Positions 9,230 to 17,460 of a DNA stretch of 64,000 nt are shown here, piece after piece. Origin of the DNA: Spelaeicoccus albus (GTDB lineage: Bacteria > Actinomycetota > Actinomycetes > Actinomycetales > Brevibacteriaceae); NCBI RefSeq assembly GCF_013409065.1, contig NZ_JACBZP010000001.1, positions 3,172,518 to 3,236,517 of the forward strand. The letters are read 5' to 3'. Every line of letters starts with the position of its first letter. The stretch's first letter is position 1. The position numbers and the translations under genes were made by a program. The notes below the pieces were generated by a model. That model was not told the DNA's origin. It ran no database searches and worked only from the letters and a program-made list of their open reading frames with translations.

Positions 9230-9991
9230 TCAGTCGTCGTTCTCCAGTTCGGCCAGGACCTCGTCGGTGACATCGGCGTTCGAGTACACGTTTTGCACGT
9301 CGTCGCTCTCTTCGAGCGAATCGATCAAGCGGAAGACCTTGCGAGCGCCGTCCGCGTCCAGCTCGATTTCGGTGGCCGGGAGGAACCTGGCCTCGGCCGT
9401 GTCGTAGTCCATTCCGCCATCGACGAGAGCGGTGCGCACGTCGACGAGATCGGTGGCCTCGCAGATCACCTCGAACGTGTCCCCTTCATCGGTGACTTCT
9501 TCGGCTCCCGCATCGACGACGGCAAGCAGCACGTCCTCGTCGGTGACGCCGTCGGTCTTGGGCACCTCGATCACTCCCTTGCGAGTGAACAGATACGACA
9601 CGCTTCCCGGGTCGCCCATGCTGCCGCCGCCGCGGGTGACTGCCACGCGCACGTCGGACGCCGCGCGGTTGCGGTTATCGGTGAGGCACTCGATCAGCAG
9701 GGCCACGCCGCCGGGCGCATACCCCTCGTACATGATCGTTTGATAATCGGCGCCACCGGCATCCTCACCCGAGCCGCGCTTGACGGCACGGTCGATGTTG
9801 TCGCCGGGCACCGACGATTTCTTTGCCGTTTGAATTGCGTCGTACAGCGTCGGATTACCGCTCACGTCACCGCCGCCGGTGCGGGCCGCCACCTCGATGT
9901 TCTTGATGAGCTTGGCGAACAGCTTGGCGCGCTTGGCGTCGACGGCCGCCTTCTTGTGTTTCGTGGTGGCCCATTTAGAGTGTCCCGACAT
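9230..9991 (-). CDS. yebC: YebC/PmpR family transcription/translation factor
   Basis: Member of the widespread YebC/TACO1 family, known as a DNA-binding regulator in some bacteria and as an aid to translation of proline-rich stretches in others. The signature start [21 protein letters not shown] is complete, and the three-domain length (253 aa) is normal. The motifs YEGYAPGG and [14 protein letters not shown] are present. A strong SD (AGGAGATCT) lies immediately upstream of the ATG, marking it as the first gene of the yebC-ruvC pair. Confidence 0.95.
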
Positions 9992-10066: not shown

Positions 10067-11230
10067 TCAGCTGATCCGGCGGCAGGATCCGTCCCATTCG
10101 CCGCGCGCCGCGGTTTCGACGACCTCGGCGAGCTGCAACGGGTACACGGTCTCCCGCGACGACCTGATCTCCTCGACGGTCCACCATCGAACGTCGTCGA
10201 GCGTTTGTTGCTCGAGCGCCGTCCACCCGGCGTTGCTGAGCCTCACATCGGCAGGAACGCGGGCACAGTAGAACTCTTCGTGCTGGCGGACCGTCTTGGT
10301 GGCGAATTCGAATTCGGCGCTGCGCCGGGCCACCGGCCCGACCAGGTCCGACGGGACAAGGTCGATCCCCGTTTCTTCGCGCAATTCGCGCGCAGCCCCG
10401 GTGCGCGAATCCTCGCCGTCCTTCAATCCCCCGCCGACGGTGAACCACCAGCGGTGGTCGGCGTCGTCGGTGTCGTGTCCCTTGATCAGCAACGTCCGAT
10501 AGTCGTCGTCGAGCACTATCACCCGAGCGGCATGACGGCTCAACATTCCGTCGGGCTCCGGCTGCCATTCGTCCCACCTGTCGGCCAAGTCGTCCTTGCC
10601 GGCCTTTGCGGCCTCGGACTGCTGCGCCAACACGATTTGTCCGCGCACGCGGGACATGCGCTGCCAGATGGTGAACATGCTGGCCAGCGCCAACAGGGCC
10701 AGCACCACCGTGAGGAAAATGCGCGGCAAGCCCATTCCGACGAAGCCCGTGAAAGTCAGCGTCAGCAGCAACCGGTCGGCGCGTTCGGCGATACCGCCGG
10801 CGGCTTTCAATCCGAGACCTTCGGCCCGTGCCCGAGCGTAGGAGACGATGCTGCCCAGGATCAAGCACGCCAGCGCCAGCATCGCCGTATACCGGTTGTT
10901 GCCGCCAAAGAAGTACCACAGCGCGATGCCGCAAAAGACCGCCGAATCGCCGAAGCGGTCAAGCGTCGAGTCGAGGAATGCTCCCCATACCGACGAGCGA
11001 CCCGACTGCCTGGCCATGATGCCGTCGAGCATGTCGGAGAGCACAAAGACCGTGATGACTATCGTGCCGATGAGCAGATGACCTGTCGGATACAGCACCA
11101 GCGCGCCGATGCACACGCCAATGGTGCCGATGATCGTCATGGCGTCCGGCGTGATGCCGATTCGGAGGAGGAACGCCGCGATCGGCGTGAGCAGGCGAGT
11201 GAAAATCGCGCGGGCAAATTTGTTCAGCAT
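10067..11230 (-). CDS. Phosphatidylinositol phosphate synthase-like CDP-alcohol phosphotransferase fused to a Nudix hydrolase
   Basis: Two enzymes in one frame. Residues 1-~200 form a polytopic CDP-alcohol phosphotransferase with the complete catalytic motif D66-x2-D69-G70-x2-A73-R74-x8-G83-x3-D87-x3-D91, plus SYARARAEGLG and GGIAERADR, which fit the actinobacterial PIP synthase PgsA1. Residues ~230-387 are a Nudix domain with an intact box (G267-x5-E273-x7-RELREETGI). Joining is by a ~30-residue polar linker. The SD GGGAG is 5 nt before the ATG. In the usual actinobacterial order the synthase follows the HIT gene; here three genes intervene. The substrate of the Nudix part cannot be read from sequence. 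Confidence 0.88.
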   Translation of the reverse strand: MLNKFARAIFTRLLTPIAAFLLRIGITPDAMTIIGTIGVCIGALVLYPTGHLLIGTIVITVFVLSDMLDGIMARQSGRSSVWGAFLDSTLDRFGDSAVFCGIALWYFFGGNNRYTAMLALACLILGSIVSYARARAEGLGLKAAGGIAERADRLLLTLTFTGFVGMGLPRIFLTVVLALLALASMFTIWQRMSRVRGQIVLAQQSEAAKAGKDDLADRWDEWQPEPDGMLSRHAARVIVLDDDYRTLLIKGHDTDDADHRWWFTVGGGLKDGEDSRTGAARELREETGIDLVPSDLVGPVARRSAEFEFATKTVRQHEEFYCARVPADVRLSNAGWTALEQQTLDDVRWWTVEEIRSSRETVYPLQLAEVVETAARGEWDGSCRRIS

Positions 11231-12761: not shown

Positions 12762-14762
12762 TCAGCCGGGCAGCTGCATGTTCCACCAGCGAAGGATGTG
12801 CTCGAAGCGAGCCTGGCGATGCCGGGGCCTGCCGGACCGGCTGAGTTCGTGGTTCTCGCCGGGGAACACGAGGAATTCGGTTTCGACGCCGCGGCGGCGC
12901 AGCGCCCCGAAGTACCGCTGACCTTGTTCGAGCGGGCAGCGCAGGTCCTGTTCGGAATGCACCACGAGAGTCGGCGTGCGCACGTCGTCGATGTGCGCAT
13001 ACGGCGACTGGGCGGCGACCTGTTCCGGCGTCGTCCCGACGTATTCGAATCCGAAGAACGATCCGATGTCCGAGGTGCCTGCGAACGATTCCGGCTCGAG
13101 CATGCCGCGTTCGACGATGGCTGCGGAGAATCTGTGGTCGTGCGCAATGATCCATGCCGTCAAGTAGCCGCCGTACGAGCCGCCCATCACTCCGAGTCGT
13201 TCGGCGTCCAGAGCGTCGTCGTCCAGGGCCGCGTCCAGGAACGCCAGCACGTCGGCCATGGCAGGAGCGGCAAGATCGCCCTTGACTGCGCGGCCGTGCG
13301 CTCGGCCGTATCCGGCCGATCCGCGCGGATTGCACATGACGACGGCGTAGCCGGCGTTGGCGTACACCTGCGCTTCGTCGAAGTAGCCCCACGAATACCC
13401 GGCGAACGGTCCACCGTGAATCATCAGCAGAACCGGATGGGGCCCCGGGCCCTCGGGTACGACAGTCCAACCGTGCACCGGATAGCCGTCCGGGGCGGTC
13501 GCCGTGAGCTCGCGCGCCGGTAGGACTGTCGTGCTGTCCCGAAGCCGCCGGGAGAAATCGGTCACCGGGTTCACTTCGCCCCCTCGCACCACTCCGACGT
13601 CCCCGGACGTCGTCGGCGACGTGAAGCCGACAACGATGACGTCGCCGGTCGCGTCCGCGCCGGTCACGACGATTCCCGCAGGGGTGAGGGTGTCAACGGC
13701 GCCGGACGCGTCGATCCGCACCAGACGGACGGCGCCCCGCTCGGTCAGCCCGCACAATACTGCTTTGCCGGGCAGCACGGTCAGCCCCACGGCCCCGTCG
13801 AGATCAACGGTTTCCGGGTCGGTGAGGCGCACGGCGGGCCGCCCCGGCGATTTTCGGTAGAGTCCGCCGGTGGCAGCCACGAAGTCCGTGCCGGACTCCC
13901 CGAGCTCGCCGGCCAGCATGACCAGGTCGTCGCCGTCGAAGCGCACGGTGCCGATCGACAAATCGGTAGCGGTCAGCAGTTCGGGTTCGGCCGGACGTTC
14001 GGGCTGCCGGGCCCCTTCCCGGCCGGGGTCGGGGTCTTCGGCGGACGGCTCGGCGGCTGCCGGCACCCGGGCCGCATACACGTCGGTGTACAGGTCGTGG
14101 TCGCGGCCGGGGTGGCGGGAGGCCAGGAAAGCCACGCGGCCGCCGTCCGGCGTAAATACCGGCTCGGAATGATCGACGATGCCGTTGGTGATCCGGATGC
14201 TTTCCGGTACCGGCTCGCTGTCCCCCGGTGCGCCGTCCAGATCGGGCAGATCGACCACGAACACGTGCTGCGGCTTGTCGCCGACATAGCCGAGCCCGTT
14301 GCTTTGGTATTTCGCCGTGTCGATGAGCCGGGGCGGCTCGGCGCCGGGAGCGACGTCCTCGTCGGTGCCGTAGCGTCCGTGTTCGGGCACGCGCGCCGTA
14401 TACGCCAGCCGGCGGCCGTCCGGCGAAAACGACGGGGACCCGGCTCCCAAGTCGGCGTCGGTCAGTTGGACCGGTTCGCCGCCGGCGGACGCCGTCACGA
14501 ACAATTGCGGCTTACCGCCCTTGTCGGCACGGGAGAACACGACGAGCGAACCGTCCGGCGAGACGACCGGGGCGCCGTCACGGTAGCCGCGGGTGAGGCG
14601 GTGCGGCGCGGACCGACCGGTCAGGTCGACGGTGAACAGCTCGCCGCGGTACTCGTCGTCGGCCAGGTCGGGGCGCGTGGCGGCCACTATCGCGGTCCGG
14701 CCCCCCGGCAACACTGCCGGCGCGGACACTGTGACGAGCAGATCGACCTGATCGGGGCGCAT
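12762..14762 (-). CDS. S9 family serine peptidase (prolyl oligopeptidase/acylaminoacyl peptidase type)
   Basis: Cytosolic peptidase, 666 aa, no signal peptide. The N-terminal ~370 residues have WD40/beta-propeller-like repeats (VVSPDGSLVVFSRAD, SFSPDGRRLAYTAR, VFTPDGGRVAFLAS) that gate access. The C-terminal alpha/beta-hydrolase carries the nucleophile in GGSYGGY (about residue 528), Asp in SEQDLRCP (about 607) and His in GENHELS (about 637). AGGAG precedes the ATG. It is placed 24 bp downstream of the HIT gene, probably in one transcript with thrS and HIT. The substrate is unknown; such enzymes trim short peptides. Confidence 0.88.
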   Translation of the reverse strand: MRPDQVDLLVTVSAPAVLPGGRTAIVAATRPDLADDEYRGELFTVDLTGRSAPHRLTRGYRDGAPVVSPDGSLVVFSRADKGGKPQLFVTASAGGEPVQLTDADLGAGSPSFSPDGRRLAYTARVPEHGRYGTDEDVAPGAEPPRLIDTAKYQSNGLGYVGDKPQHVFVVDLPDLDGAPGDSEPVPESIRITNGIVDHSEPVFTPDGGRVAFLASRHPGRDHDLYTDVYAARVPAAAEPSAEDPDPGREGARQPERPAEPELLTATDLSIGTVRFDGDDLVMLAGELGESGTDFVAATGGLYRKSPGRPAVRLTDPETVDLDGAVGLTVLPGKAVLCGLTERGAVRLVRIDASGAVDTLTPAGIVVTGADATGDVIVVGFTSPTTSGDVGVVRGGEVNPVTDFSRRLRDSTTVLPARELTATAPDGYPVHGWTVVPEGPGPHPVLLMIHGGPFAGYSWGYFDEAQVYANAGYAVVMCNPRGSAGYGRAHGRAVKGDLAAPAMADVLAFLDAALDDDALDAERLGVMGGSYGGYLTAWIIAHDHRFSAAIVERGMLEPESFAGTSDIGSFFGFEYVGTTPEQVAAQSPYAHIDDVRTPTLVVHSEQDLRCPLEQGQRYFGALRRRGVETEFLVFPGENHELSRSGRPRHRQARFEHILRWWNMQLPG

Positions 14763-14786: not shown

Positions 14787-15362
14787 TCACGGCCAGGCGT
14801 CCGCCAACGCCTTCCGGACGTCGGCGTGCACCTGCGGGAGTGCTTTGGTCTGGGCCACGACCGGCAGAAAATTCATGTCGCCGGCCCAGCGCGGCACGAT
14901 GTGTTCGTGCAGGTGGGCTGCAATTCCGGCACCCGCCACGTCTCCCTGATTGATCCCCAAGTTGAACCCGTGCGGCGCCGACACCTTCCGGACGACGCTC
15001 ATGGCCGTCCGGGTCAGGGTGCCGATCTCGAAGATCTCGTCGTCGGTCGCCTCGGTGTAGTCGGCGACATGCCGGTACGGGCACACGAGGAGGTGGCCGG
15101 GGTTGTACGGGTAGAGGTTCAGGACGACGTAACAGCCGCGGCCGCGGTGCACGATGAGGCCCTCCTCATCGGACTTGTCCGGGATCGTGCAGAACGGGCA
15201 TTCCGCCCGGCTGGAATCCTTCGGCTTGTCCGCGCCGTCGATGTAGACCATCCGATGCGGGGTCCACAGGCGGCCGAAGCCGTCCGGGACGCGCGCAAAT
15301 CCGTCCGGCGATTCGGCAGCGGCCTCCTCGCGAATCTCGGGGGCATCGGGGGCATCCGCCAC
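14787..15362 (-). CDS. HIT-family protein (AP4A phosphorylase/hydrolase-like)
   Basis: 191-aa histidine-triad nucleotide-binding protein. The triad HLHEHIVPRW lies near residue 150, with the N-terminal Cys pair CPFCTI and GLIVHRG typical of the actinobacterial group related to mycobacterial Rv2613c, an AP4A phosphorylase. The family cleaves or phosphorolyses dinucleoside polyphosphates and other nucleotidyl esters. The GTG start is 2 nt after the thrS stop, with GGAG inside the thrS 3' end. The thrS-HIT adjacency is the standard actinobacterial arrangement. Confidence 0.88.
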   Translation of the reverse strand: MADAPDAPEIREEAAAESPDGFARVPDGFGRLWTPHRMVYIDGADKPKDSSRAECPFCTIPDKSDEEGLIVHRGRGCYVVLNLYPYNPGHLLVCPYRHVADYTEATDDEIFEIGTLTRTAMSVVRKVSAPHGFNLGINQGDVAGAGIAAHLHEHIVPRWAGDMNFLPVVAQTKALPQVHADVRKALADAWP

Positions 15363-15364
15363 TC

Positions 15365-17368
15365 TTACACCTGCTCCTTCGCGTCGATGGCCGCCACGAT
15401 ACGGTCGACTGCCTCATCGACCGGGATCCCGTTGTCTTGATGCCCGTCCCGATAGCGGAACGAGACGGCGCCGGCGTCCTGATCCTCGCCGCCGGCAATC
15501 AGCAAATACGGGATCTTGCGTTTGGTGTGCGTGCGGATCTTCTTTTGCATCCGGTCGTCCGAGTCGTCCACTTCGACGCGGACGCCGCGAGCGCGCAGCT
15601 TGGCGGCGACGTCATGCAGATAGGGTGCGAAGTCACCGGCCACCGGCACGCCGACCACTTGCACCGGCGCGAGCCAGACCGGGAACGCGCCGGCGTAATG
15701 CTCGAGCAGGACCGCAAAGAATCGTTCGATCGATCCGAACAGCGCCCGGTGGATCATCACGGGCCGCTGATGAGAGCCGTCCGACGCCGTGTAGTCGAGT
15801 TCGAACAATTCGGGTTCGAAGAAGTCGAGCTGGATCGTCGACAGCTGCCACGTCCGGCCAATGGCGTCCTTGGCTTGAACGGAAATCTTCGGCCCGTAAA
15901 ATGCCGCGCCGCCCGGATCGGGAACGAGTTCGAGCCCGGATTCCACTGCAACTTCCTCGAGCGTGCGCGTCGCCGCCTCCCAGGTCTCGTCGTCGCCGAC
16001 GGATTTCTCGGGATCGCGCGTCGACAGCTCCAAGTAGAAGTCGTCGATGCCGTAGTCGCGCAGCAGGTCGAGGACGAAGGTCAACAGGCGGGCGAGCTCG
16101 TCGCGCATGCCTTCGCGCGTCGTGTAGATGTGAGCATCGTCCTGGGTGAAGCCGCGTGCGCGGGTGAGACCGTGGACGACGCCGGACTTCTCGTACCGGT
16201 ACACGCTGCCGAACTCGAAGAGCCGCAGCGGCAGTTCACGGTAGGACCGGCCGCGCGCCCGATAGATCAGGTTGTGCATCGGACAGTTCATCGGCTTGAG
16301 GTAGTAGTCCTGGCCGGGCTTTTTGATGCTGCCGTCGGCGTTCTTCTCCTCGTCGACGTGCATGGGCGGGAACATCCCGTCGGCATACCACTCGAGGTGC
16401 TTCGACGTCTCGAACAATTGTTTTTTCGTGATGTGCGGCGTGTTGACGAACGAATATCCCGCCTCGATGTGTCGACGGCGCGAATAATCTTCCATTTCGG
16501 TGCGGACGATTCCGCCGTTCGGGTGGAAGACCGGCAGCCCGGATCCGAGTTCGTCCGGGAACGAGAACAAATCGAGTTCGGCGCCCAGTTTGCGATGGTC
16601 GCGCCGTTCGGCCTCGGCCAGGCGTTCTCGGTAGGCGACGAGCTCGTCCTTGGTCGGCCATGCCGTGCCGTACACGCGTTGCAGCGACTCGTTTGCCTGG
16701 TCGCCGCGCCAATAGGCGGCCGATGACCGGGTGACGGCGAATCCGTTGCCGATGAGCTTCGTCGACGGCAGATGCGGTCCGCGGCAGAGATCCTTCCAGA
16801 CCGTCTCCCCCGACTTCGGGTCGACGTTGTCGTACATGGTGAGGCCGCCAGAGCCGACTTCGACCGAGGAGCCGTCGTCGTCCGACGCGCCCCCCTTGTC
16901 GGCGATCAGCTCGAGCTTGAACGGTTCGTCGGCGAGTTCGGCGCGTGCCTCGTCGTCGGTGACCTCGCGGCGCACGAACTTCTGTCCGCGCTTGACTATC
17001 TCTTTGGCCTTCTTTTCGATCTTCTTCAGGTCGTCGGGCGTGAGCGCCTCCGGAACCGCGAAATCATAGTAAAAGCCGTCTTCGATCGGCGGGCCGATGC
17101 CGAGCTTGGCGTCCGGGATGATGCTTTGCAACGCTTGCGCCACCACGTGGGCCGCCGAGTGCCGCAAAATGCCCAGCCCGTCGGCCGACTCGATGGTGAC
17201 CGGTTCGACGACATCGCCGTCGCGCAAGGCGTGCGCCAGGTCGACGAGTTCGCCGTTCACGCGCATGGCCACCACATTGCGACGGCCGTCGAAAGCCTCG
17301 GTTCCCGTCGTGCCCGGCGCGGCCACGGAAGAAGTTCCTTCGATGGTCAACGTCAATTCTGCGGGCAC
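15365..17368 (-). CDS. thrS: Threonine--tRNA ligase
   Basis: Class II synthetase charging tRNA-Thr. In order it has a TGS domain (residues 1-~65), the SAD editing domain ([13 protein letters not shown] ... YYDFAVPE), the catalytic core with motif 2 around [19 protein letters not shown], the zinc-site Cys in MNCPMHNL, motif 3 ([20 protein letters not shown]), and the C-terminal anticodon-binding domain. The start is set at the GTG at 17368 because AGGAG lies 5 nt before it; the GTG at 17374 abuts that SD. Length (~667 aa) is normal. It heads the thrS-HIT-S9 transcript. Confidence 0.96.
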
Positions 17369-17460
17369 TGTCACTCCTGAGCTTTCTGTCGATTGCGGCG
17401 GCGCCGGACGCGCCCGCCACCCTCGATGGTATCCCGCGGTTCACTGCCCGGCGCGACCGG

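Follow-up and report, generated by a model that had tools for sequence, protein, structure and literature searches.

The metal-binding and inositol-phosphate-binding residues of solved PIP synthases (PIPS, PgsA1) are given in two papers (PMC4634129, PMC6506517). The former, published in 2015, places the PIPS active site on the cytosolic side, calls the PIP phosphatase as yet unidentified, and mentions an extramembrane domain in AF2299. In many actinobacteria, the gene lies in a thrS-HIT-PIPS-acyltransferase-pimA-...-yebC locus with a Nudix gene downstream of pimA. The preliminary description of the DNA analysed here had drawn a comparison with the mycobacterial PIM locus, and this comparison holds, as a review, in its account of the mycobacterial cluster (PMC3229680), lists Rv2609c as the sixth ORF, with a mutT domain and a putative GDP-mannose (GDP-Manp) hydrolase activity.

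We analysed a stretch of 64,000 nucleotides of the Spelaeicoccus albus genome (hereafter, the window), in which a PIPS domain and a Nudix domain share one gene of the thrS locus. The features of the locus are as follows.

9230..9991, minus strand: yebC, syntenic anchor downstream
10067..11230, minus strand: fused gene, PIP synthase (residues 1-205) and Nudix hydrolase (about residues 217-387), 387 aa
10070..10582, minus strand: Nudix domain with N-terminal extension and C-terminal WDG (residues 379-381), placed by the box at 267-289 and by synteny
10544..10546, minus strand: in-frame ATG (M229), candidate internal start, with GGAG 9 nt upstream
10583..10615, minus strand: junction, about residues 206-216, placed by poor conservation and the model
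10616..11230, minus strand: PIP synthase domain, residues 1-205, a CDP-alcohol phosphotransferase, identified by NF045883, PDB relatives and pocket residues
11308..12668, plus strand: two genes pointing away from the fusion, for a 161-aa protein that matches no family and a weakly HTTM-like protein
12762..14762, minus strand: S9 prolyl-oligopeptidase family gene between HIT and PIPS, present in 52 of 58 family loci
14787..15362, minus strand: HIT-family gene
15365..17374, minus strand: thrS, syntenic anchor upstream

The fused gene and its two halves

On the minus strand, from 11230 to 10067, the window holds a single open frame of 387 codons plus a stop, and its Nudix half lies immediately upstream of yebC. 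The preliminary description had read a complete CDP-alcohol phosphotransferase motif (residues 66-91) and a complete Nudix box (residues 267-289) in one uninterrupted frame, and both were found exactly at those positions. A stop or frameshift between the domains, looked for as a refutation, was found neither here nor in the one two-domain homologue that a search recovered. This homologue, in genome G003 of a sister genus, is the same fusion (385 aa, no stop) with 61% identity over residues 1-386, the same neighbours and both active-site motifs retained. A neighbouring genus has separate, overlapping PIPS and Nudix genes, as would be expected if a sequencing or assembly error had joined two genes here, but the G003 fusion runs without a stop, its linker is similar in length, and its Nudix part carries the same extension at the N-terminus. 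Thus, the probability of such a slip is practically negligible.

Identity between the two fusions was 71% in the PIPS part (residues 1-200), 38% in the junction (residues 201-226, where 9 of the 24 aligned positions agree) and 53% in the Nudix part. By the NG86 method, dN and dS were approximately 0.22 and 1.18 for the PIPS part and 0.42 and 1.61 for the Nudix part, the dS values being near saturation. With dN below dS, both parts look constrained at the sequence level.

The PIPS half matched the NCBIfam model PIPSynth (NF045883) over residues 5-198 at 254.7 bits (cut-off 170), and the fusion matched Pfam CDP-OH_P_transf at 47.9 bits (cut-off 22). Solved relatives of this half are Renibacterium RsPIPS (E 8.4e-65) and M. 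tuberculosis MtPgsA1 (E 1e-44). The signature D1xxD2G1xxAR...G2xxxD3xxxD4 is intact, with the metal-site aspartates at D66, D69, D87 and D91, and the equivalents of the inositol-phosphate pocket are R92, S130, R133, R135, R150, R153 and R191. As read from the alignment, R94, S132, K135, R137, R155 and R195 of MtPIPS correspond to R92, S130, R133, R135, R153 and R191, so that R133 is an Arg where MtPIPS has Lys135.

A genome-wide check found no separate PIP synthase, and the fusion carries the sole one found in this one-contig genome. There were three CDP-OH_P matches in all, the other two being PgsA-like. One of these, considered as a redundant PIP synthase, was rejected as PgsA (TIGR00560 124.1 bits against a cut-off of 109.1, and absent from the matches listed for PIPSynth); the other, rejected likewise, is PgsA/ClsA-like, with 102.8 bits for TIGR00560, below the cut-off, and 25.3 bits for PIPSynth (cut-off 170).

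Residues 232-355 match Pfam NUDIX (PF00293) at 61.6 bits (cut-off 21.1), and the Nudix box GX5EX7REUXEEXGU is canonical, while every match of the fusion to the NCBIfam Nudix models lay far below the cut-off. The domain carries an N-terminal extension, EWQPEPDG (residues 221-228). Its pattern, (E/D)W....DG, is common to the fused Nudix and all six outgroup proteins, five of which also have the C-terminal WDG; both are absent from the aligned Nudix proteins of the neighbouring genus. Since the fused Nudix keeps both, the fusion appears to be end to end: a whole PIPS, a short junction and a whole Nudix. Identity of the fused Nudix to the separate Nudix proteins of the order outgroups was 46-49% (L079-L083) and 43% (L084).

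Structure models were folded from trimmed (A3) and Nudix-only (A2) alignments. The AlphaFold model of the whole fusion had a mean pLDDT of 91.8 and a pTM of 0.67, with an unreliable mutual placement of the halves, and the Nudix-alone model had a mean pLDDT of 92.9. The junction was modelled as an extension of the last transmembrane helix (residues 170-221), with a block mean pLDDT of 61 at residues 211-220. The fusion model found its best PDB matches among PIP synthases for one half and among Nudix hydrolases for the other. The Nudix half shares its fold with MutT-like Nudix hydrolases, namely 2PQV (VIA Z 15.8, 146 residues, rmsd 3.1), E. coli YmfB 4NFX (VIA Z 15.5, 138 residues, rmsd 2.8) and 3GRN (VIA Z 15.1, 134 residues, rmsd 2.6), at only 16-18% identity. 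Reading a substrate from the fold was tried and given up, as many Nudix entries tie.

The gene might also yield two products, the full fusion and, by initiation at the internal ATG, a Nudix protein on its own. In the alignment, M229 coincides with the start inferred for the free Nudix proteins of relatives, and it has the GGAG upstream of it, but G003 has GTG and no GGAG at this position, and we regard a second product as unlikely.

Overlap, fusion and loss at the locus

The seven order outgroups (L079-L085) all have thrS followed by PIPS, acyltransferase and pimA, the query sequences for the latter two having come from L079. Toward yebC, pdxS (6/7), Nudix (6/7) and pdxT (5/7) follow in varying order; the L083 stretch ends before the pdxT position, L084 has Nudix and neither pdx gene, and L085 has both pdx genes and no Nudix. 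Among six genomes of the class (L144-L149), PIPS was present in all, acyltransferase with pimA in five and Nudix in three; for example, in L144 and L145 a matching Nudix follows PIPS, acyltransferase and pimA. Four named loci (L004-L007) have PIPS, acyltransferase and pimA throughout and Nudix in none, though two of them end at pimA. Nudix adjoins pdxS or sits between pdxS and pdxT in L079-L083 and L149, an adjacency that might tie Nudix to vitamin B6 metabolism instead of inositol lipids.

Within the family, 60 genomes were searched with a PIPS match threshold of E<=1e-10, and PIPS matched in 23 and not in the other 37. The locus was examined in all 58 genomes with any match; G039 and G021, which gave no match, were left unplaced. 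All 58 loci have PIPS, Nudix or both upstream of yebC, and acyltransferase, pimA, pdxS and pdxT had no match in any of these stretches. The claimed absence of acyltransferase and pimA from the window locus was thus borne out, and no true PimA was found elsewhere in the genome. PimA was found at E<=1e-25 in none of the 60 family genomes, while the search controls, six of six outgroups, matched at E<1e-130, one of them being the query's own genome. The best matches to the PimA query, in four family genomes, reached only 1e-9 to 1e-14 and look like ordinary GT4 enzymes, and a PimA elsewhere in the window genome, which has nine PF00534 matches, was rejected.

Two of the 23 genomes with PIPS have it fused, 14 have a separate adjoining Nudix gene, and seven have no Nudix, judged by the lack of a second match at E<=1e-10. 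Nudix was found at the locus in 35 of the 37 genomes without PIPS, the other two matching neither gene, and in 51 family genomes overall. Taking the inferred Nudix start, all 14 pairs of separate genes overlap (4 nt in eight of them, 14 nt in six), with Nudix in another frame. Such overlap at the sequence level suggests co-translation, so that fusion would be only a small further step. In 16 of the 35 loci with Nudix only (L074, L115, L116, L120, L125, L127, L129 and L131-L139), part of the C-terminal end of PIPS (within about residues 151-206) survives as a short stretch ahead of an intact Nudix. The association of the two genes in the family is negative: 16 genomes have both, 7 have PIPS alone, 35 have Nudix alone and 2 have neither (Fisher p 0.02, with species not independent). 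The proposal of the preliminary description that the genes in between were lost and the outer ones then fused is well supported by these states in relatives, where the genes are separate, overlapping, fused or lost.

A five-marker tree built from 27 loci pairs the window genome with G003 as its sister, at a support of 0.97. In the single-gene trees the fused copies are successive branches and not sisters (support against sisterhood 0.99 for PIPS and 0.71 for Nudix). One fusion in the common ancestor of the two genomes is favoured; since the single-gene trees do not pair the fused copies, a fusion at the base of the family with later splitting is possible. Among the 58 family loci, only the window and G003 have the two plus strand genes that separate the S9 peptidase gene from PIPS. 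Homologues of the first gene stand inverted between HIT and PIPS in the outgroups L083 and L085, so the pair may be ancestral, and we dropped it as proof of sisterhood. The PIPS genes of G006 (L070, 8482-9093) and G007 (L111) diverge much more strongly than those of other family members, with 48-49% identity to the fusion and a long branch in the PIPS tree, while occupying the same locus, which makes replacement by a foreign copy possible on sequence grounds.

Likely function and rival explanations

Judging from the sequence, we believe that the gene is probably an end-to-end fusion of two PIM-locus genes, whose product would be an active PIP synthase tied to a cytosolic housekeeping Nudix pyrophosphohydrolase. 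Because acyltransferase, pimA, pdxS and pdxT are missing from the family locus, PIPS lies directly against Nudix, and overlap or a single frame would have followed. The N-terminal half would work as a PIP synthase at the inner membrane face, converting CDP-DAG and inositol phosphate to PIP and CMP. The C-terminal half, with its MutT-like fold, would be a working cytosolic pyrophosphohydrolase that the last PIPS helix anchors to the membrane. Its substrate would be a nucleoside di- or triphosphate compound with no connection to the reaction of PIPS. The fusion would then mainly fix 1:1 co-production and location, and would not add a new pathway step.

Three observations stand against this reading: the trees do not group the fused copies as sisters; the persistence of a fusion in two genera would usually be taken to hint at a functional link; and the window genome has no recognisable inositol-1-phosphate synthase. 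This enzyme was found in 58 of the 60 family genomes, and a PF01658 search found none in the window genome (one contig, 98.9% complete) or in an 86%-complete draft. A full-length query also recovered nothing from the window genome, while it matched G003 at 6.2e-206 with 82% identity. The window genome has an MshA-like gene scoring 417 bits, below the cut-off of 462.5, which none of seven genomes tested passed. Our guess is that the PIPS substrate is obtained from inositol that is imported and then phosphorylated.

The preliminary description had suggested that the Nudix part sanitises a CDP-lipid or regulates inositol-lipid synthesis. In a functional coupling of this kind, Nudix would act on the PIPS reaction, for example by membrane-side hydrolysis of CDP-DAG or surplus CTP/CDP compounds, and the fusion would channel or regulate inositol-lipid synthesis. 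Such coupling would fit the retention of the fusion in two genera with both active-site motifs intact, the overlapping and possibly co-translated genes of all 14 other pairs, and the cytosolic side of the PIPS active site, where Nudix would be (PMC4634129). The distribution of the genes speaks against it. Nudix appears independent of PIPS in the family, being retained in 35 of the 37 genomes that lack PIPS, and PIPS appears independent of Nudix, since seven of 23 PIPS genomes do without. Nudix even persists where most of PIPS has been deleted. This retention of Nudix without PIPS speaks against a function confined to inositol-lipid synthesis, and the negative association counts against Nudix as a PIP phosphatase or a regulator of PI synthesis. 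We therefore find coupling improbable, and a role in inositol-lipid synthesis gained on fusion is possible for the fused form. That the Nudix half processes a substrate or product of PIPS itself, for example as a CDP-DAG hydrolase or by a PIP to PI activity, strikes us as highly unlikely; if true, it would make the protein a self-contained PI-synthesising enzyme and give a handle on the missing PIP phosphatase. A further explanation takes Nudix as a GDP-mannose hydrolase that acted on the PimA donor and was retained after PimA loss. It draws on the locus place, similar to that of Rv2609c, and on the putative GDP-Manp hydrolase activity proposed for that protein in the review's account of the cluster (PMC3229680). 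The GDP-mannose mannosyl hydrolase 2i8t is among the fold matches (Z 13.9), but it ranks only 37th among many similar folds, and the 51 family genomes that keep Nudix at the locus do so with PimA found in none of the 60. Moreover, the Nudix box of GDP-mannose mannosyl hydrolases is altered and lacks one catalytic Glu, and the box of the fusion is canonical. This explanation is thus distinctly unlikely.

The probable reading, in which a PIP synthase was joined to a housekeeping Nudix, makes the locus a clear example of an operon decaying to the point of gene fusion, and the likely intermediates can still be seen in one family: separate genes (in the outgroups), overlapping genes, fused genes and loci that lost either partner, some with scars. 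It also puts to the test the inference that domain fusion means a shared pathway, as close relatives can do without either partner while keeping the other. We caution that the fusion is no ground for assigning the PIM-locus Nudix to inositol-lipid synthesis. At the same time, it is a natural two-enzyme protein with which to test whether that Nudix could be the PIP phosphatase.

Rarity and comparison with known systems

No other fusion was found among the matches listed in overlapping samples of the order (396 genomes), the class (394) and the phylum (396), a search that scored at most four candidates per genome and in which a long-linker fusion could appear as two rows and be missed. A collection of named genomes gave separate domains only, at 12 loci (4 PIPS, 8 Nudix), and searches of open-licence PMC papers found no report of a PIP synthase or CDP-alcohol phosphotransferase joined to Nudix. 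The joining of PIPS and Nudix is rare, being found in two genera of the family.

Compared with PIP synthase (PIPS, PgsA1; NF045883; PDB 5D91/5D92, 6H53/6H59/6H5A and 6WM5), the fusion is alike in its family match, signature motif, pocket arginines, and neighbours thrS and HIT, and differs in having a C-terminal Nudix domain, no adjoining acyltransferase or pimA, and no inositol-1-phosphate synthase found in the genome. Its Nudix half resembles the PIM-locus Nudix of the Rv2609c type in its place in the thrS...yebC locus, Rv2609c being likened to it by locus place and description, but it is joined to PIPS instead of free. In the archaeal AF2299 and IPCT-DIPPS (PDB 4O6M, 4MND), a CDP-AP membrane domain is likewise naturally joined to a soluble domain. 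That domain has a fold other than Nudix and stands at the N-terminus, whereas the Nudix of the fusion is C-terminal. Both families are thus already known, as are fusions of CDP-alcohol phosphotransferases with soluble domains such as these two, and what is new is the combination.
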